Of a stretch of DNA of 61,688 bases, positions 44,822 to 57,694 are shown one piece after another. The stretch spans positions 1-61,688 of the forward strand of contig JANWWA010000004.1 of the NCBI GenBank assembly GCA_025056565.1. Direction: 5' to 3'. The DNA comes from Chloroherpetonaceae bacterium (GTDB lineage Bacteria > Bacteroidota > Chlorobiia > Chlorobiales > Thermochlorobacteraceae). The position numbers were made by a program, and so were the translations under genes. Position 1 is the first letter of the stretch; every line of letters begins with the position of its first letter. The notes under the pieces were generated by a model that saw only the letters and a list, made by a program, of their open reading frames with translations, did not search any database and was not told the origin of the DNA.

Positions 44822-46984
44822 CTATGTTGAGTTTGCAGAGGCAACAGTAGGTATCGGCGGCGCAGGGGCAGCGGGAAGTTTAACGAAGAAAGCTGCGCCC
44901 CTGCCCTTACCCTCACTTTCTACCCAGACTTCTCCACTGTGGAGTTCCACGAGTTGCTTCACAATAGCTAATCCTAATCCAGTCGAGCTTTCACCGCCTG
45001 TTGGACGCGCCGAAAGGCGCTGAAACTTGCCGAACACTTTCTCCTTATCTTCCTCACTGAAACCTTGTCCCTCATCTTTCACGGCTATCACAATTGCAGC
45101 CTCGCCCTGCACTGAATTGCCTAAGGCTGGTTGTGAGGCATTGTCCGTCTTATAGCATTCTACGGTGATACGCTGACCAACTTCACTGTATTTGATGGCG
45201 TTACTCAAAAGGTTCTCAAAGACTTCTCGTATCCAACTGGCATCTACCTCTGCGAAGCAATTTGGCTGAATGCAGGTGTGAATTGTCTGAGACTTGCGTC
45301 GAGCTTGCACTTCTGCATCAGAAATGGTCAGTGAGAGCAGCTCACTAAGATTGGTGAGGCGACGATTCAGGCGAATTTGACCGCTCTCGAGAGCAGCGGT
45401 TTGAAGCAGGTGGCTAATGAGTTCCGACATCCGCTGCGCAGATGAGTGGATTCTCTGGAGAAAGAGTGCAACTGCATTTAACCGCACAAACTCAGTGGAG
45501 CAAGAGAGCTGAGACAGCTCTTCGCTTGCAAGCTCTGCAAAACCTACGACGGACTGAAGCGGATTTTTAAGGTCGTGGGCAGCAATGGACAAAAGCTCAG
45601 TCTTAATACGGCTGGCTTCTTCCGCAATCTGGCGCTGCTCTTCGGCAACTTTGAGGGCTGCATTCAGCGCTGCATTTTTTTCTTTCAGTGCAGCCTCTGT
45701 TTTTCGCTTGTTCTGGTAAGCACGATAAGCGGTCAGGGCAAGGGCAAAGGCGAGCAGCGCAATCCCGATTAGGGAGTTACGCAAAAGTATTTCACGTGAA
45801 AGTGCAAGGGCTTGGATTTCTTTCTCGTGTTGCAAGCGAGCAATTTCTCGTTGCCGCTTTTCTGATTCATATTTTTCCTGAATTTCTGCAAGCTGCTTGG
45901 CACTGCTTTCGTTGAGCACGGAGTCTCTTGCTCGTGCAAAGGCGAGACTATACTCAAAGGCTGCTTTGTAATTGCCGCATTTGGCTTCAATGCGTGCAAG
46001 TAGCTCATAGACCTGTGCAACCGTGCGCATTGAGCCAGCTTGGTATGCATTAGTAAGCGCTTTTTTGCCAAAGTCCAACGCTGCGGTGTAGTTTCCCATC
46101 TTCTCATAAAGCTCCGCAATAGATTGCTGCGTAATAGCGAGAGTGCTTTTGTTGCCAATTTTTTCTTTAAGCGTCAGCGCTTCTTGATAGCGCAATAGGG
46201 CTTTTGTGAAATTGCCGTTGCGCTCCTCCGCATAGCCAAGATTGTTGAGCACTGTAGCAGCCCCTACTTGGTCACCAATTTCTCGGCAAATCTCTAAGGC
46301 TTGCTCGTAGTAGGATTTGGCGTCCTCAATTCGATTTTGGTCGTCATAAATGTTGGCAATGTTGTTAAGCGCAGTAGCGATGCCCGTTTTGTCATTAAGC
46401 TCCTTAGCAATTTCAAAAGCACGCTCTTGATACCGTAGTGCTTCACTAACATTGCCAAGCTCATAGTAGAGGTTGCTAATGTTGGAAAGCGTGATGCCCA
46501 AAGATAGGCGATGATGAAGCTGCTCCTTTATGCGTAGGGATTGCAGATAATACTCCAGAGCTTCCGTGCTGCGATTTTGCGCTAAGTAGACACTCCCAAT
46601 GTGATTAAGTGAAGATGCAACACCAAGACTATCACCGATTGCTTGACGAATGTCCATTGCTTGGTGATGCAAACGCAACGCATCGCTATACTGGCTTTTT
46701 TTCTCGTAGATGAGCCCAAGCGTTTCCAGTGCAGAAGCGTGCGATTTGCGGCTGCCTAATGTTTGGCTAAGCTCAATAGCTTCCTCAGCGAAAAGTTGAG
46801 CTTTCTGAAGCTCAATGCGAAGATATCGAGAAGCAAGTTCCTGCAGGAGAGCAAGCCGAGCTTCACCATATACGCTAGGCAGTCGCTGCTCCAAAGAGTC
46901 TAGTTCAGAGAGTGTCTGAGCAGGCAGCAGCGGCGCTGCGCTCAAAAAACCCCACACAACCGCTACAACACAGCGGCATCGCAT
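44822..46984 (-). CDS. TPR-containing sensor histidine kinase (copy 1)
   Basis: 720 residues from the ATG at 46984, chosen because it opens a signal peptide (VVAVVWGFLSAAPLLPAQ). About eight tetratricopeptide repeats fill the periplasmic region (residues 40-380; LNNIANIYDDQNRIEDAKSY, LNNLGYAEERNGNFTKALLR). A membrane helix (SLIGIALLAFALALTAYRAY) and coiled coil lead to the kinase: H-box LLSIAAHDLKNPLQSVVGF, N-box VFENLLSNAIKYS, DEGQGF and GLGLAIVKQLVELH. It senses an unknown, probably protein-mediated, signal. No response regulator is adjacent. It is closely related to the kinase at 55469-57610. A TATCTTC element lies about 40 bases upstream of the start. Confidence 0.92.
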   Translation of the reverse strand: MRCRCVVAVVWGFLSAAPLLPAQTLSELDSLEQRLPSVYGEARLALLQELASRYLRIELQKAQLFAEEAIELSQTLGSRKSHASALETLGLIYEKKSQYSDALRLHHQAMDIRQAIGDSLGVASSLNHIGSVYLAQNRSTEALEYYLQSLRIKEQLHHRLSLGITLSNISNLYYELGNVSEALRYQERAFEIAKELNDKTGIATALNNIANIYDDQNRIEDAKSYYEQALEICREIGDQVGAATVLNNLGYAEERNGNFTKALLRYQEALTLKEKIGNKSTLAITQQSIAELYEKMGNYTAALDFGKKALTNAYQAGSMRTVAQVYELLARIEAKCGNYKAAFEYSLAFARARDSVLNESSAKQLAEIQEKYESEKRQREIARLQHEKEIQALALSREILLRNSLIGIALLAFALALTAYRAYQNKRKTEAALKEKNAALNAALKVAEEQRQIAEEASRIKTELLSIAAHDLKNPLQSVVGFAELASEELSQLSCSTEFVRLNAVALFLQRIHSSAQRMSELISHLLQTAALESGQIRLNRRLTNLSELLSLTISDAEVQARRKSQTIHTCIQPNCFAEVDASWIREVFENLLSNAIKYSEVGQRITVECYKTDNASQPALGNSVQGEAAIVIAVKDEGQGFSEEDKEKVFGKFQRLSARPTGGESSTGLGLAIVKQLVELHSGEVWVESEGKGRGAAFFVKLPAAPAPPIPTVASANST

Positions 46985-47090
46985 CTTCAAAAGCGTGTAG
47001 AAATTTGTATGAAGATACACAAAAGAAGGGTTGCTACGCACGAAGTCAGCTTTCCAGCGAAACACTTAACGCATCCCACGCCGTGCACTT

Positions 47091-51078: not shown

Positions 51079-51378
51079 CGAATTCAGAACGCAGTTTAGT
51101 TGACACAAATCAATTCACGATGCGATGGCAGACTCTGCACTTCAGAGTGTCGCCCACGATTGATTGCGCGCGTAGCAATGCTCACCCTCTCTGGATGCCT
51201 GCAGACTGATGGGGCTGGAACGCCAACTCACTGCCAACAGGTATCTTCATCATCGCTATGCTTTGTCATGTGTGTCTCTTGGCAAGACGGCAACGCGGAT
51301 TGCGATTGCACACACTTGAATTTAGGATTGTTGTAATTTCGCAAAATTTCTTGGCTCTTCAATTTGCCGCAAGCCCGA
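51079..51378. other. Divergent intergenic region between lpxB and the glycosyltransferase fusion gene
   Basis: 300 bases with no convincing gene. It contains a 6-bp inverted repeat (ACTCTG/CAGAGT, 51132-51148) and a TTGACA near the lpxB start without a matching -10. Promoters of both flanking genes should lie here, but none can be assigned confidently. Confidence 0.45.
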
Positions 51379-53322
51379 ATGACACTGTCTGTTGTAATTG
51401 TCAGCTACAATGTCAAGACTTTCTTGGAACAGTGCTTGCGCTCTGTGCTGAAAGCGGCAGACGGCATTGAGACAGAGATTTTTGTGGTCGACAACCATTC
51501 AGTTGACGGCACACAAGCTATGCTGCGAGCACAGTTTGCACATCTGCCAAATGTGCATCTCATCTTCAATAGCGAGAACGTGGGCTTTAGCCGAGCCAAC
51601 AATCAAGCCCTACGGCAGTGCAAGGGGCGGTATGTGCTGGTGCTGAATCCTGATACGATTGTGCAAGAAGATACATTCCGCAAGATGATTGCGTTTATGG
51701 AGCAAGATGAAAAGATTGGGGCAGCAGGTTGCAAGCTGCTTAATGCTGATGGGTCATTTCAGCTCTCGTGTCGGCGCAGTTTCCCAACGCCTGAGATCTC
51801 GTTTTACAAGCTAATTGGACTGTCCACGCTCTTCCCGAAAAGCCGCCGCTTTGCCCGCTATAACCTTACTTACTTGCCGATTGATGAAACTTATGAAGTC
51901 GATGCGCTGATGGGCGCATTTATGTTTCTTCGCCGCGAAGTCTTGGAGCAGGTGGGATTGTTTGACGAAAGTTTCTTTATGTATGGCGAAGATTTGGACT
52001 GGTGCTATCGCATCAAGCAAGCAGGCTGGAAAATTTACTACTATCCGGGCACACAGATTATTCACTACAAAGGTGAGAGCACAAAGAAAGAAAGTTTCAA
52101 CTACGTGGTTCGTTTCTATGAAGCAATGCTGATTTTTGTGCGCAAACATTATCGCTCGCGTTATTCTCGGCTGTTTGAGGCGCTGCTGGTGGTGGGCATT
52201 TATGCGCGGGCAGCGCTGGCATTTTTGCGGCGTGTGCTGGTGCGATTAGTGATACCGATGTTAGACCTGGCACTTGTCGTGGCTGCAATTTTTATCGGCT
52301 TTCGATACAAGTTCACCGTCTACCCAGCTGAATTTGTAAGCATTGTGCTACCTGCTTACACAGCAATTTGGCTGGCGTCCTTGCTTGCGTTTGGTCAATA
52401 CGCCGATACAAAGCGATATGCGCTTAAAACGCTCTGGTTAGGACTGGGGTTCGGTTTTCTGGTCAATGCCTCGCTAACATTTTTCTTCAAGCAGTATGCG
52501 TTCTCGCGCGTGGGACTAACTGTGTCCTTTCTTTGCTCCCTGCTGTTCCTAAGCGGCTGGAGGGTGCTCTGGCGAGCGATTCGGCAAAGCCCATTCAGTG
52601 GGGCAATAGCGCGCCGAAAGCGAGTGGCAGTTGTGGGCACAGGGCAAGCAGCAATGGAAGTGGCGACAAAGTTGCAAGCCGATATCTCCAAGAACTATGA
52701 AGTTGTGGGATTTGTCAGCCCGTCAAGTGATGGTATGCATCACTTGCAAGTGTTGGGAAGGTTAGACGATGTGGTGGACATTGTGCGCATCAATCGACTA
52801 AGTGAGCTAATCTTTGTAGCGTCAGAGGTAAGCAACACAGCTGCCTTAGCAGCGATTGCAAAATGTAGCCGTTCTGCCGTCGAATGCAAAATTGTGCCCA
52901 GTGGTTTAGATGTGGTGATTGGGAAAGGCTCTATTGAAAGTTTTTCAACAGCGGTGCCATTGGTCGAGGTGGATTTGCCGCTCACTCGCTTCTCACGACA
53001 GCTCTCTAAGCGAATCTTTGACCTTGTGCTATGGCTGCCGCTAACAGCTGTGCTGCTGTGGCGACGACATAAGCCGCTCTCGGATATATGGGAGGTGCTA
53101 CTCGGAAAGAAGACTTGGGTAGGTATGAGCACGGTGCAAAGAGGCACTCAAGCCTCAGCAAATCATGTGGCAGGCTGGCAAGAAGGGGTCTGGAGCTTAG
53201 CAGCCCTACAAGGTGCAATGACACCTGAACAACATGAACAAGCAAATCTCTTCTATGCCAAAAATTCTTCGCTGGGGCTTGATATGGAAATCCTGCTGAA
53301 AAGTCTCTTTGCTAAGAAGTGA
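51379..53322 (+). CDS. GT2 glycosyltransferase fused to an eroded sugar-phosphotransferase domain
   Basis: 647 residues from the ATG at 51379. Residues 1-260 are a rhamnosyltransferase-like GT2 domain: SVVIVSYNVKTFL, VVDNHSVDGTQA, LVLNPDTIV, and FFMYGEDLDWCYRIKQAGW. Several membrane helices follow (about 270-405), then a Rossmann CoA-binding-like domain (RVAVVGTGQAAMEVA) and a C-terminal region aligned by LSKRIFDLVLWLPL and YAKNSSLGLDMEILLKSL with polyprenyl-phosphate sugar transferases (WbaP/PglC-like). The KFRSM-type catalytic segment and Asp-Glu pair are missing, so that part is likely not catalytic. It probably acts in O-polysaccharide assembly. Confidence 0.8.
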   Translation: MTLSVVIVSYNVKTFLEQCLRSVLKAADGIETEIFVVDNHSVDGTQAMLRAQFAHLPNVHLIFNSENVGFSRANNQALRQCKGRYVLVLNPDTIVQEDTFRKMIAFMEQDEKIGAAGCKLLNADGSFQLSCRRSFPTPEISFYKLIGLSTLFPKSRRFARYNLTYLPIDETYEVDALMGAFMFLRREVLEQVGLFDESFFMYGEDLDWCYRIKQAGWKIYYYPGTQIIHYKGESTKKESFNYVVRFYEAMLIFVRKHYRSRYSRLFEALLVVGIYARAALAFLRRVLVRLVIPMLDLALVVAAIFIGFRYKFTVYPAEFVSIVLPAYTAIWLASLLAFGQYADTKRYALKTLWLGLGFGFLVNASLTFFFKQYAFSRVGLTVSFLCSLLFLSGWRVLWRAIRQSPFSGAIARRKRVAVVGTGQAAMEVATKLQADISKNYEVVGFVSPSSDGMHHLQVLGRLDDVVDIVRINRLSELIFVASEVSNTAALAAIAKCSRSAVECKIVPSGLDVVIGKGSIESFSTAVPLVEVDLPLTRFSRQLSKRIFDLVLWLPLTAVLLWRRHKPLSDIWEVLLGKKTWVGMSTVQRGTQASANHVAGWQEGVWSLAALQGAMTPEQHEQANLFYAKNSSLGLDMEILLKSLFAKK

Positions 53323-53425: not shown

Positions 53426-54649
53426 TTAGCGACCACGAAGCAGCTCCCTAATGTAAGAAGGTGCAGACGTGCCCAAGTGCATACGAAAATTTTGCTCGCA
53501 GAGTGCAAGCACTTTCTTTGCCTCTGCAGGACGACGCTGCTGCAAGTATGACTCTATTAGTACCGTATAGGCAGGTTCATAAAGGTGGTCAGCTTGTAGC
53601 ATCTTGTGCCCGAGCTCAATCACGACTGCGAGGTTTTGCTCGGCTTGTGCTTTGCTAAGTAGCACTTGCAACGCATTAAGGTAGAGGTCTTTAAGCATCT
53701 GACGCTTGTAGCTAGTCCATTCATACTCAGCGTCATTTTTGAGGAATTCATCACGGTAAAGTTCAATTGCGGCGTAGTACTTTTCTGCAGACTGGCTGCG
53801 CTGTGCCTCTTTCAAGGCAGCCTCGAAGGCTTCCACATCATACCAGTAATCCACATTCAGCGTGCCGAGATTGAGTTCATAGCCAGAGGGGTGTGTGCGA
53901 ATATACTTGGACTGGCGAGCCACACGAAGGTTGGGCTCAAACAGCCGGCGAATGAAGGAAATCGCACTGAAAAGCATAACTTCTGCGCTGCGCGTGGAGA
54001 CCTCTGGCCAGATGCAGTCAATCAGCTGTTCAGTGCGTACAACTTGCTGATGATGCAAAAGCAGTATCTTAAAGACAGCTGCGGTTTTAAGATTCTGCCA
54101 GTCATTTTCGTAGATGATGCGGTCGTGAATTTGCACCACCAAGCTGCCAAAGGCTTGAATTTGAATAGGCAGTGCGAGAGCGCTGTGAGAAAGAGAAAGT
54201 CGTGGCAGCTCTGTGGGTTGGGGGCTTGCAGAGGCTTTTTTCTGCCACAGTCGCCGCTCGGCATTTTCCAAAACAGGCAGTAGCGTCTCCAGCGACAAGG
54301 GTTTGGGCACAAAGTCAGAAATGCCGCTGCGCAAAGCGTCAATAACCAGTGCCATATCGCCCTCCCCTGTGATGAAAATAATCTCCGCATGAGGTTGCAA
54401 CTTGTGCAAGGCTTTGAGCACAGAAAATCCGCTAAGGTCAGGCAAGCGAATATCAAGCAACGTGATGTCAGGGCAGAGCGCTTCGAACTTCTGCAGAGCG
54501 GCTGCACCGCTGGCAGCCGTGTGGACTTGATAGCCGACTAAGGTCAGGCTCTGGGCGACCGTTTCTCTCACGAAGTCGTCGTCGTCAACCAGTAAAAGCC
54601 GAAGTGGAGTGCGTGAAGGCTGATTGCGTTCAAGCTGCGCCTTTGCCAT
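53426..54649 (-). CDS. Response regulator with winged-helix and BTAD output domains
   Basis: 407 residues from the ATG at 54649. The receiver domain (about residues 15-130) has acidic LLLVDDDDFVRE, phospho-acceptor Asp in ITLLDIRLPDLSGF and the conserved Lys in FVPKPLS. An OmpR/SARP-like winged helix (KTAAVFKILLLHHQQVV, YIRTHPSGYELNL) and a helical bacterial transcriptional activator domain (BTAD; residues 270-400) follow, as in SARP regulators. It would bind DNA when phosphorylated. The kinase-like gene upstream ends 16 bases before its start, so they form a two-component pair with the TPR kinase beyond. Confidence 0.88.
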   Translation of the reverse strand: MAKAQLERNQPSRTPLRLLLVDDDDFVRETVAQSLTLVGYQVHTAASGAAALQKFEALCPDITLLDIRLPDLSGFSVLKALHKLQPHAEIIFITGEGDMALVIDALRSGISDFVPKPLSLETLLPVLENAERRLWQKKASASPQPTELPRLSLSHSALALPIQIQAFGSLVVQIHDRIIYENDWQNLKTAAVFKILLLHHQQVVRTEQLIDCIWPEVSTRSAEVMLFSAISFIRRLFEPNLRVARQSKYIRTHPSGYELNLGTLNVDYWYDVEAFEAALKEAQRSQSAEKYYAAIELYRDEFLKNDAEYEWTSYKRQMLKDLYLNALQVLLSKAQAEQNLAVVIELGHKMLQADHLYEPAYTVLIESYLQQRRPAEAKKVLALCEQNFRMHLGTSAPSYIRELLRGR

Positions 54650-54665
54650 AGCATCTTTGCCGTAT

Positions 54666-55346
54666 TTATGCTTGCTTGTCGAGTTGCGAAAAATTTGCTT
54701 CAACCAGCGTAAGCGACCGTGATGCTTGACGGGACACGGTTACGCTCGCATGAAGTGCTTGCGCCAGAGAGCGTAGCAAATTAAGAAAACCTTTCTCCCT
54801 TGCCTCGAGTTCTTTGGTGGTGGCTAGGTGCACGGTTGTGTATTGGCACTTTAGTTCAAGGCAATTGCGGCGTTGGCGTGTTTTGATGGATAGCTTGGGT
54901 CGTCGCCTGCGGTCAACGCGTTCGGCGTGTGTGATAGCATCGCAGAGAATAAGAAAGATGAAAAGGCTAAGTGGACCGGAGGGCACGCGAAGAAAGGGTT
55001 GTGCGGCAGTCAGTCTGGTTTGAGTGTGAATGCGCAGCGCCCCCAATCGAGAGCGAAAGAGACGCAATGCAGACTCGAGAAATTCGTGCAAGTTAATGCG
55101 GCGTTCCAGCGTGTTGCCTTTGACAAGGTCACTGAGAAGTTCCAAAATCGCTTTCTGGCGCAAAGCACCTTGTCGAATTTGGGTAGATAGTTCGCTAAGC
55201 TCATTTGCAATGGAGGTAGGCGGTTTTTCGGCAAGAAGCGAAAGCGTCTCTGCAGCAAAGTTCATCATCGTAAGTGGCTGGCTTAGCTCATGGAGTGCAC
55301 TGCTAAAAACTTCAGAGAGCACTCTAAGTTTAAGAAGGCTTCCCAT
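54666..55346 (-). CDS. Reduced histidine kinase-like protein
   Basis: 226 residues from the ATG at 55346; upstream in-frame codons at 55472 overlap the next gene and are not preferred. An H-box-like SSALHELSQPLTMMNFAAETL lies near residue 18, including the His and the QPL found in ATP-dependent sensor kinases. The rest should be the ATPase domain, but the N-box is replaced (FLILCDAITHAE), no DxGxG or GxGLG motif is seen, and no membrane segment is present. So it may be a phosphotransfer or pseudo-kinase protein. It is followed by the response regulator gene (16 bases), which suggests a phosphorelay. A TATACTTG element lies about 35 bases upstream of the start. Confidence 0.7.
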   Translation of the reverse strand: MGSLLKLRVLSEVFSSALHELSQPLTMMNFAAETLSLLAEKPPTSIANELSELSTQIRQGALRQKAILELLSDLVKGNTLERRINLHEFLESALRLFRSRLGALRIHTQTRLTAAQPFLRVPSGPLSLFIFLILCDAITHAERVDRRRRPKLSIKTRQRRNCLELKCQYTTVHLATTKELEAREKGFLNLLRSLAQALHASVTVSRQASRSLTLVEANFSQLDKQA

Positions 55347-55468: not shown

Positions 55469-57610
55469 TCACTTAGTCGCAGGCAACGCTACAAAAAACG
55501 AGCTGCCTTTGTCTTTCCCTTCGGAGGTCGCCCACACTTTACCACCATGAATTTCTACCAGCTTTTTGACAATTGAAAGTCCTAAACCTGTGGAATCTTC
55601 CCCGCCAGTTGGGCGCGCTGAAAGACGCTGAAACTTGCCGAAAAGCTTTTTCATATCGTCGGCGCTGAGACCTTGGCCCTCATCACGGACCGAAATTAAA
55701 ATGGTGGGGTACGGCAGCAGCTCGGTATGCACGCTGGTTGTGATGTGTTGAGGTTGAGCACAAGCCGAAGCTGGCATGGCTGACGTGGATGGCAGAGTGG
55801 CATCGTAGCGCCGAGCCTCAACCCAGATAGTTGATTGCTTCAGTGAATACTTCATTGCGTTTGAGATTAAATTTTCAAACACCTCTCGCATTCGACTGGC
55901 ATCGACTTCGGTGTATAAATTAGGCGCGAGCTGAAGTTCAATTCGCTGCATTTTCTGAGCAGCATTAGGCTGGTTGGCTTCGACAACGCTTTTCAGCAGC
56001 ATACCGATGTCCACAAGCGATTTTTCTAACTCAACTGAGCCAGCATCAAGTGCCGTAGTCTTAAGCAAACCTGTAATGAGACGCAGCATGCGTTGTGAAG
56101 CGTGAAGAATGGCATCGATCATCGCTGTCACATCATCACTTGCAGGTTGCTTTTCTCTAAGCAGCATAGCAAATCCAGCAATGCTCTGGAGCGGATTCCG
56201 CAAATCGTGAGCTGCAATGGAGAGCAGCTCTGTCTTGAATGCATCAGCTTGTTCAGCAGCTTGGCGTGCGACGTCTGCGTTTTCTCTTGCCTTGCGAAGC
56301 TCGGCGTTCAGTGCTGAGAGGGTTTGATTCTGACGCACCTTTTGCCAGTAGCTGAGCGCAATAAGCCCAGCGACAATCAGCAAAAGTAGTGCTAATGCCA
56401 AAAGCAGGCGCTGCACAGTGGTTTTGGCTTCTGCTTCTCTTTGCAAGCGTTCAATTTCTCGGTCTTTGCGTTCCGTCTCAAGCCGGAGCTGCAGCTCCGC
56501 AATGTGCTTCTGACGCTCGAGTGAAAGAAGCGAATCTTTAAGGGCACTGAAGCGCTCGTAGTAAGCCAGTGCAGTTTTGTAGTCTCCCATATCACGGTAA
56601 ATGTCGGAGAGCAATTTGGCAGCGGCTCTGGCTTCATTTTGCGCCTGAATGCGGCTTGCAAGCTCTAAGGAGCGAGTGGCAAACTGCACGGCTTCGGTAT
56701 GCTTTTTTTGAAGCAAGAGCACATAGCCAATGCGTTCCAGTGATTCAGCAATGTAGTTCTGCACTTGCATCTCTTCACGCAACTGAAGCCCTTTACGGAA
56801 GTATCGCAGTGCATCGTCATAGTGGCCGTGAACGCGTGCGCATTCGCCGAGTGTGGTGAGGGCTAAGTCGGTGTAGCGTTTGTCACCGAGCGTTTCAGCG
56901 ATCTCCAGACCGCGTAGGGCAAAGCGCTTGGCTGCTTCATACTCACCCAGCGCAAAGTAGCTCATCGCAACGCCAACCAGTGAAGAGCAAATAGCGTCTT
57001 GTGCATTCAAGGCTTCCGCCTTTTCTAAGGCTTGGGTACGATGTGAAAGCGCAAGATGATGTTTGCCCTGATTCGCATAGCAATCGCCAATGCGGTTTAG
57101 CGACCAGCAAATGCCCTGTGCATCACCCATTTCTTCTCGAAGTGCAAGGGCACGAATGTGATAGCTGAGAGCAGAGTCATACTTGCCTTGATAGTCATAA
57201 ATGTTACCCAAGCTATGATAACACCATGCAATACCTGTTTTGTCGCCAAGTGCGTCATAGAGCGAAAGTGCCTGCCAGCGATGCGCAAGGGCTTTTGGGA
57301 AGTCAGACCAGCGTTCATAGACATAGCTGATGGCATTATGGGCATCAGCAAGGCCGCGTTTGTCTTTGAGCTGACTGGCAAGTGTATGCATTTGCTCAGC
57401 GTAGTGAAGCACGCTATCGGGCTGATTACGCCAGTAGTAGCGCACAAGACGATGAAGAAGACGAAGATGAAGCGTATCTCTACCCGTTTGAGCAAGCGCT
57501 TCAAGAAGGCTGTCAGCAAGTGTGCGAGGCTGTGCTATCGCTGCACTGGTTAAGGTAAAGCAAAGACTTATCAATACGACAGGGGCGATGGGGAACATGC
57601 AGCGAAGCAT
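55469..57610 (-). CDS. TPR-containing sensor histidine kinase (copy 2)
   Basis: 713 residues from the ATG at 57610, which opens a signal peptide (PIAPVVLISLCFTLTSAAIAQ). Tetratricopeptide repeats of the form CYHSLGNIYDYQGKYDSAL and RIGDCYANQGKHHLAL fill residues 40-370. A membrane helix (LLLALALLLLIVAGLIALSY) and a coiled coil lead to the kinase: LLSIAAHDLRNPLQSIAGF with the phospho-acceptor His, VFENLISNAMKYS, DEGQGL, and GLGLSIVKKLVEIHGG. It is a close paralogue of the kinase at 44822-46984; the end motif FGKFQRLSARPTGGEDSTG is nearly the same. It lies upstream of the reduced kinase and the response regulator on the same strand. Confidence 0.92.
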   Translation of the reverse strand: MLRCMFPIAPVVLISLCFTLTSAAIAQPRTLADSLLEALAQTGRDTLHLRLLHRLVRYYWRNQPDSVLHYAEQMHTLASQLKDKRGLADAHNAISYVYERWSDFPKALAHRWQALSLYDALGDKTGIAWCYHSLGNIYDYQGKYDSALSYHIRALALREEMGDAQGICWSLNRIGDCYANQGKHHLALSHRTQALEKAEALNAQDAICSSLVGVAMSYFALGEYEAAKRFALRGLEIAETLGDKRYTDLALTTLGECARVHGHYDDALRYFRKGLQLREEMQVQNYIAESLERIGYVLLLQKKHTEAVQFATRSLELASRIQAQNEARAAAKLLSDIYRDMGDYKTALAYYERFSALKDSLLSLERQKHIAELQLRLETERKDREIERLQREAEAKTTVQRLLLALALLLLIVAGLIALSYWQKVRQNQTLSALNAELRKARENADVARQAAEQADAFKTELLSIAAHDLRNPLQSIAGFAMLLREKQPASDDVTAMIDAILHASQRMLRLITGLLKTTALDAGSVELEKSLVDIGMLLKSVVEANQPNAAQKMQRIELQLAPNLYTEVDASRMREVFENLISNAMKYSLKQSTIWVEARRYDATLPSTSAMPASACAQPQHITTSVHTELLPYPTILISVRDEGQGLSADDMKKLFGKFQRLSARPTGGEDSTGLGLSIVKKLVEIHGGKVWATSEGKDKGSSFFVALPATK

Positions 57611-57694
57611 TGTCTTAGAAGTTTTACGGCTTTCTTTGATGCAGAAGCAGTCGTTATATTGTCGCAAAGTTTCTACCAAATCTGCAACCGCAAT

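Follow-up and report, generated by a model that had tools for sequence, protein, structure and literature searches.

Large monotopic phosphoglycosyltransferases (Lg-PGTs), among them WbaP, CpsE and WcaJ, combine a four-helix membrane bundle with a PF13727 domain and a PF02397 domain. In WbaP, the PF13727 domain dimerises through a swapped beta-hairpin and binds nucleotide, and the enzyme is inhibited by UMP (PMC10942596). Bifunctional monoPGTs have been named as Bi-PGTs in the same paper. A further point of reference is the general protein O-glycosylation of Bacteroidota, which is phylum-wide and has a core of mannose followed by rhamnose, to which no genes are assigned in a 2025 review (PMC12871550).

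The protein described here is encoded in a 61,688-nucleotide stretch of a Chloroherpetonaceae bacterium genome, referred to below as the window. Its C-terminal half is collinear with Lg-PGTs over their full length, but unlike them it has a deletion of about 60-70 residues, has lost the PRP motif, and carries a GT2 glycosyltransferase domain in front. The fusion of a functional domain to a monoPGT recalls the Bi-PGTs; in this case, however, a domain is fused to a PGT whose core is incomplete and lacks the catalytic residues, and strictly speaking the protein is no Bi-PGT. The GT2 domain is shared with WbbL-type/TIGR01556 rhamnosyltransferases and with relatives in Paenibacillus, although the latter are separate polypeptides adjoining a complete PGT. 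The data do not support equating the protein with FpgA, a Flavobacterium psychrophilum GT2 whose mutant shows altered glycosylation, as FpgA has 319 aa and a different neighbour. Beyond the mention of Bi-PGTs, the papers searched yielded none on fused or dead PGTs, and in them we found none describing a PGT that has lost catalysis and is retained as a fused module.

Domain architecture and the missing catalytic core

The gene is a 647-aa ORF at 51379-53322 (+), starting with ATG at 51379 and ending with the stop codon at 53320-53322, and was recovered exactly where a reading made from the sequence alone (the sequence-only reading) had placed a GT2-PGT fusion. Translation might instead begin at an in-frame TTG at 51364. 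The closest named record, from Candidatus Thermochlorobacter, is 74% identical across the protein. Within the window the gene is solitary, with an opposite-strand lpxB-like gene upstream and an opposite-strand response regulator downstream, both named by reading the sequence without a search; a response-regulator-like gene is located at 53426-54703 (-). Two histidine-kinase-like genes with TPR-like repeats before the kinase (44822-47065 and 55469-57679, both on the minus strand) flank the fusion region, and their kinase parts resemble each other. Features of the protein are listed in Table 1.

Table 1 Features of the fusion protein, with nucleotide positions in the window, and of intact fusions from KSB1, with positions in the named loci
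Feature	Residues	Positions	Strand	Evidence
GT2 catalytic domain	1-260	51379..52158	+	Pfam PF13641/PF00535, invariant residues, motif positions, AF2
Linker helix and four-helix membrane bundle typical of Lg-PGTs	263-405	52165..52593	+	Hydropathy, hhalign, WbaP alignment
Rossmann-type PF13727 domain (WbaP 'DUF')	410-506	52606..52896	+	Pfam, Foldseek, conserved glycines
Beta-hairpin 'VIGKGSIES'	507-530	52897..52968	+	AF2 strands, conservation, WbaP alignment
Hydrophobic KRIFD helix, equivalent to the PGT membrane helix	544-564	53008..53070	+	Conservation, AF2, PGT alignment
Deletion junction		53062..53079	+	PGT alignment, hhalign gap, PF02397 positions before 91 unmatched
C-terminal PGT remnant, VLLGKKTWVG ... 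FYAKNSSLGLDMEILLKSLF	567-647	53077..53319	+	PF02397, conservation, dN/dS
KSB1 intact fusions		L129:1638-3896, L130:1548-3806, L131:1192-3525, L132:1692-4040(-), L133:999-3437		

The N-terminal domain has a GT-A fold with NPD (DxD-like) and ED motifs, as is typical of GT2 glycosyltransferases, and was matched by Pfam families PF13641 (3e-32) and PF00535 (7.8e-29). All GT2 motifs are present (VVDN 36-39, NPD 90-92, GEDLD 203-207, and HYKGES 229-234), and D38, N39, D43, D92, E204, D205, D207, and H229 are invariant among 59 homologues. In the structural model, pLDDT is mostly >90 in this domain, and the fold was matched by RmlT and other GT2 structures in a Foldseek search with the full-length model. 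The earlier description of a rhamnosyltransferase-like GT2 domain is supported. Because its motifs are intact, the domain should be catalytically active, and it is most likely an L-rhamnosyltransferase of the WbbL type. Its score against the TIGR01556 rhamnosyltransferase model was 67 bits, below the cut-off of 200.55. The donor is probably dTDP-L-rhamnose, given the rmlD neighbours and the weak similarity to rhamnosyltransferases. Use of this donor is plausible in view of an rmlD gene in the host genome (~2.9 Mb), on a contig other than that of the fusion, and of rmlD genes next upstream of the fusion in KSB1 and Neomarinimicrobiota loci (TIGR01214, 256 bits, above the cut-off).

Profile comparisons identify the C-terminal half as a descendant of a WbaP-type Lg-PGT. 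A profile of 59 homologues aligned by hhalign with one of ten complete Lg-PGTs (probability 100, E 1.4e-40, 378 columns) collinearly from the first membrane helix to the last helix, with one large gap. A profile search of PDB sequences with this half recovered WbaP (1e-38) and PglC (7.2e-22) with the same gap. The four-helix bundle, PF13727 domain, KRxxD helix, and C-terminal PGT helices all occur, and in that order. Hydropathy peaks lie at residues 265-283, 290-308, 319-337, 352-370, and 374-392, and an AFSR motif is conserved at residues 374-377 of the bundle. The PF13727 (CoA_binding_3) match covers residues 354-507 (2.5e-11). The Rossmann domain conserves G420 and G444 at 97%, while its core is weakly conserved (mean 0.35), and Foldseek also matched it to 3nkl. 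The hairpin that follows appears to sit approximately where the chain-swapping hairpin of the WbaP dimer lies; the AF2 model places its strands at 512-514 and 519-521, G515 is found in 51 of 59 homologues, and position 516 is K or S in 59/59.

Monomer AF2 models were obtained for the full protein (mean pLDDT 87.4, pTM 0.78) and for the C-terminal half alone (mean pLDDT 85.1, pTM 0.59), which was modelled and searched separately because the full-model Foldseek search was swamped by GT2 matches. The top match of the C-terminal half was WbaP (8t53, E 8e-10), with a low TM-score (0.34) and an rmsd of 15.7, so that the match is to be read as a relation of fold and not of overall arrangement. The KRIFD helix is broken near Pro554 in the AF2 model, giving helices at 538-550 and 552-562. 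At the junction, only a few residues separate this hydrophobic helix from the helix preceding 'VLLGKKTWVG', and the ~60-70 residues of the PGT core that carry QERVG, KFRSM, DPRxT, and the basic RK..LDE segment with its Asp-Glu dyad are absent. The remnant beyond the junction aligns with 'NVLKGDMSLVG ... FYIENMSLRMDLKIL' of PGTs, with PRP missing. The window protein has no whole-domain PF02397 (Bac_transf) match above the Pfam cut-off: residues 567-644 fall on profile positions 91-175 of 179 and score 15.5 bits, where the cut-off is 27. Other fusions cover PF02397 only at approximately positions 76-178, and some of these exceed the cut-off.

Across a 66-member alignment, the K of KFRSM is kept in a single member, its M in none, and the Asp and Thr of DPRVT in none. 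The Asp-Glu dyad (LDExPQ) is absent from the window protein, and no aligned member keeps both residues (0/66), with D kept in L020 and L023 and E in L051 and L058. Neither the sequence nor the AF2 models contain a DE-dyad core. Structural positions are almost invariant (K544, D548, and Y626 at 98%; G582 and D635 at 100%). That an intact PGT might be masked by misalignment was rejected, since, among 111 fused ORFs screened for motifs, a KFRSM-like motif and LDExPQ occurred together only in the five KSB1 paralogues. The sequence-only reading had proposed a WbaP/PglC-related half that has lost its catalytic core, and had named a complete DE-dyad core, or the lack of any relation to sugar transferases, as findings that would overturn it. 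Neither was found: the relationship to PGTs is clear, and alignment with WbaP and PglC, the 66-member alignment and the hhalign gap agree that KFRSM, DPRxT and the dyad are gone. One detail of that reading needs correction, as the region around KFRSM is indeed missing but was not exchanged for an unrelated stretch, and is better called a deletion. Judged by its residues, the C-terminal half is not an active PGT and would no longer perform sugar-phosphate transfer.

Distribution, length variants and phylogeny

The protein is a member of a widespread conserved family. A survey of homologues, proposed when the architecture was first noticed, found it in Chlorobiota, Ignavibacteriota, Kryptoniota, Calditrichota/KSB1, Neomarinimicrobiota, WOR-3, and Bacteroidota. 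Most of the 82 Calditrichota/KSB1 genomes scanned contain a full-length fusion, usually as a single copy. In a draw of 148 genomes from the phylum group of the window, 88 had a strong match to the GT2 domain or to the whole protein and about 60, many of them Chlorobia, had no strong match to the fusion; most genomes of the Chlorobia order in this draw are without it. The PGT remnant is under purifying selection, with dN/dS mostly 0.07-0.19 where two close relatives give a readable dS (pairs with saturated dS were excluded).

The extent of the loss differs between lineages. Members from KSB1, WOR-3, and Neomarinimicrobiota retain part of the lost strand (for example 'FVYGEKNQRVLLYQFAG...NKLPYLWAILKGDVSFVG' in L019), and the stretch is wholly gone in Chlorobiota, Ignavibacteriota, and most Bacteroidia. 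The GT2 domain and part of the Rossmann domain persist in certain Bacteroidota lineages from which the PGT remnant, and even the helices, have disappeared. Some of these proteins (390-420 aa) lack both membrane helices and remnant, with their C-terminus close to the Rossmann hairpin, and others (410-435 aa) stop after the helices; the remnant, and sometimes the helices, are dispensable in these organisms. Four Bacteroidota loci (L030:1166-4060, L033:5980-8874, L041:4719-7613, and L059:5980-8874) encode fusions extended to ~960 aa by a further hydrophobic segment and a SPOR-like C-terminal domain, which possibly ties the enzyme to peptidoglycan. The L033 extension, the one compared with SPOR, scored 20.9 bits, just below the cut-off of 21.

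In a quick PGT tree with some long branches, the pseudo-PGT halves cluster apart from all complete PGTs with support 100, consistent with a single change. The GT2 tree largely tracks phyla. The intact KSB1 fusions (753-813 aa), which join a GT2 domain to a complete Lg-PGT with KFRSM/KFRTM and LDE in place, are of the Bi-PGT kind (L129, L130, L131:1192, L132, and L133). Directly downstream of the intact copy L131:1192 is a second GT2-PGT fusion (L131:3593-5869) with RFRVK in place of KFRSM and a broken dyad, LEKIPQ, so that the two form an active/inactive tandem pair. All of these KSB1 fusions, including L131:3593, fall within the complete PGTs, and their GT2 domains group with a separate Ignavibacterium GT2 on another branch from that of the window family. 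Placement apart in both trees indicates that GT2-PGT fusion arose at least twice, and derivation of the window family from the intact KSB1 fusions was rejected on the same grounds. The closest unfused GT2 proteins (48-50% identity) are found in Paenibacillus, with a complete PGT gene directly downstream and rmlD-like genes upstream. This arrangement shows GT2 and PGT activities linked without fusion; we make no claim that Paenibacillus has the ancestral form.

Gene neighbourhood

Among the 90 loci with enough flanking sequence, a DPM1-like GT2 gene is directly upstream of the fusion in 47, accA (PF03255, 2.5e-155) is directly downstream in 52, and both are present in 44; since related genomes are not independent, the numbers indicate how broadly the arrangement occurs and should not be taken as a significance test. 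The accA gene is found 3' of the fusion in, for example, L015, L017, and L019-L029, and is not beside it in the host window. The DPM1-like gene was matched strongly in almost all of the 148 genomes drawn from the phylum group and lies <=1.5 kb from the GT2 or fusion gene in 37/88 genomes and <=6 kb in 55/88. Copies such as L029:5277-5990 and L013:3921-4799 often adjoin the fusion. The host genome has its own copy on contig C13, 76% identical to that of L013 and not adjoining the fusion. The encoded protein weakly matches synthases of polyprenyl- and dolichyl-phosphate sugars, and from this family similarity and our reading of its sequence we infer that it makes a polyprenyl-phosphate sugar. 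A hydrophobic GT-C-like protein of 420-435 aa is encoded beside the DPM1-like gene and the fusion in L013:4742-6001 and L021:4586-5890. Neither copy had an NCBIfam match, and that of L013 also had no Pfam match.

Proposed function of the fusion and competing explanations

We propose, with a probability of roughly 65%, that the protein is a GT2 enzyme, most likely an L-rhamnosyltransferase, which is joined to a pseudo-PGT that holds it at the membrane, and which acts on a polyprenyl-linked acceptor. With architecture, core loss, the single pseudo-PGT clade, selection and synteny as direct results, we infer donor, acceptor, dimerisation and regulation. At the inner face of the inner membrane, the GT2 domain would use a nucleotide sugar as donor, probably dTDP-L-rhamnose, and attach the sugar to a polyprenyl-phosphate-linked acceptor. 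Both the Lg-PGT-type membrane module and the neighbouring DPM1-like gene point to such an acceptor, which is likely the product of the polyprenyl-phosphate-sugar synthase that this gene may encode in relatives. Given that bundle, Rossmann domain, hairpin, KRxFD helix, and C-terminal helices are all kept, the pseudo-PGT probably retains the GT2 domain at the membrane as a dimer, near the lipid-linked acceptor. Uridine nucleotides may regulate the GT2 domain through the Rossmann domain, as they apparently do in WbaP; the conserved hairpin 'IGKGS', at about the place of the WbaP hairpin, suggests that dimerisation and nucleotide sensing may both persist in the fusion. The literature search found no biochemistry on any family member. 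The idea of the sequence-only reading that the C-terminal half is a membrane scaffold fits the retention of conserved parts under selection, but scaffolding cannot be the sole purpose everywhere, since some Bacteroidota have dropped the remnant or the helices and kept the GT2 domain and part of the Rossmann domain.

Alternatively, the pseudo-PGT could serve as the inactive partner of a complete Lg-PGT in the same cell, joined to it by the DUF hairpin, which would bring the first and second sugar transfers together in one complex. Complete PGTs are present in 17/17 genomes checked that bear the fusion or the Paenibacillus GT2, one is encoded ~0.7-3.8 kb upstream on the same strand in Ignavibacteria/Kryptonia, and the broken-dyad fusion of L131 directly adjoins an intact one, all of which would suit such a partnership. 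However, the KSB1 and Neomarinimicrobiota loci showed no complete PGT in the vicinity of the fusion, and in the window genome the two complete monotopic PGT genes, like the two polytopic ones, are on other contigs than the fusion, and we regard this explanation as unlikely.

We also consider it quite improbable that the C-terminal half is no more than a membrane tether for the GT2 domain, taking no part in specific docking, sensing or pairing. The missing catalytic residues, the low conservation of the Rossmann core, and the shortening or loss of this half in some lineages speak for such an anchor. A bare anchor would have no need of G582, D635, Y626, K544, and D548, which are kept over many phyla, nor would it account for whole-length collinear homology to Lg-PGTs, and the Flavobacteria-type relatives that lack helices yet have Rossmann pieces are the reverse of what it predicts. 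That the gene is a decaying, non-functional relic, or was created by faulty assembly or gene calling, is rejected as highly improbable, for although the original PGT function is lost, the same architecture is conserved in many phyla and the remnant has a low dN/dS.

Returning to the proposed membrane-held GT2 enzyme, a selected fusion that occurs across related phyla beside a gene for making a lipid-linked sugar may belong to a shared glycan pathway. A DPM1-like synthase paired with a rhamnosyltransferase-like GT2, as seen from synteny and distribution in several phyla, fits the first two sugars of the Bacteroidota O-glycan. We raise, as a tentative and rather unlikely possibility, that this pair builds the Man-Rha core of the general protein O-glycan in Bacteroidota and their relatives. 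The synthase would make polyprenyl-phosphate-mannose, the fusion would add L-rhamnose, and the dead PGT would have been re-used to bind the polyprenyl-phosphate sugar. That about 60 of the 148 genomes, many of them Chlorobia, have no strong fusion match counts against this reading. The synteny supplies a concrete, testable gene pair for the O-glycan core, a step called unidentified in PMC12871550. Should the module prove to bind polyprenyl-phosphate sugars or to pair with live PGTs, it would show how membrane glycan assembly lines are organised.
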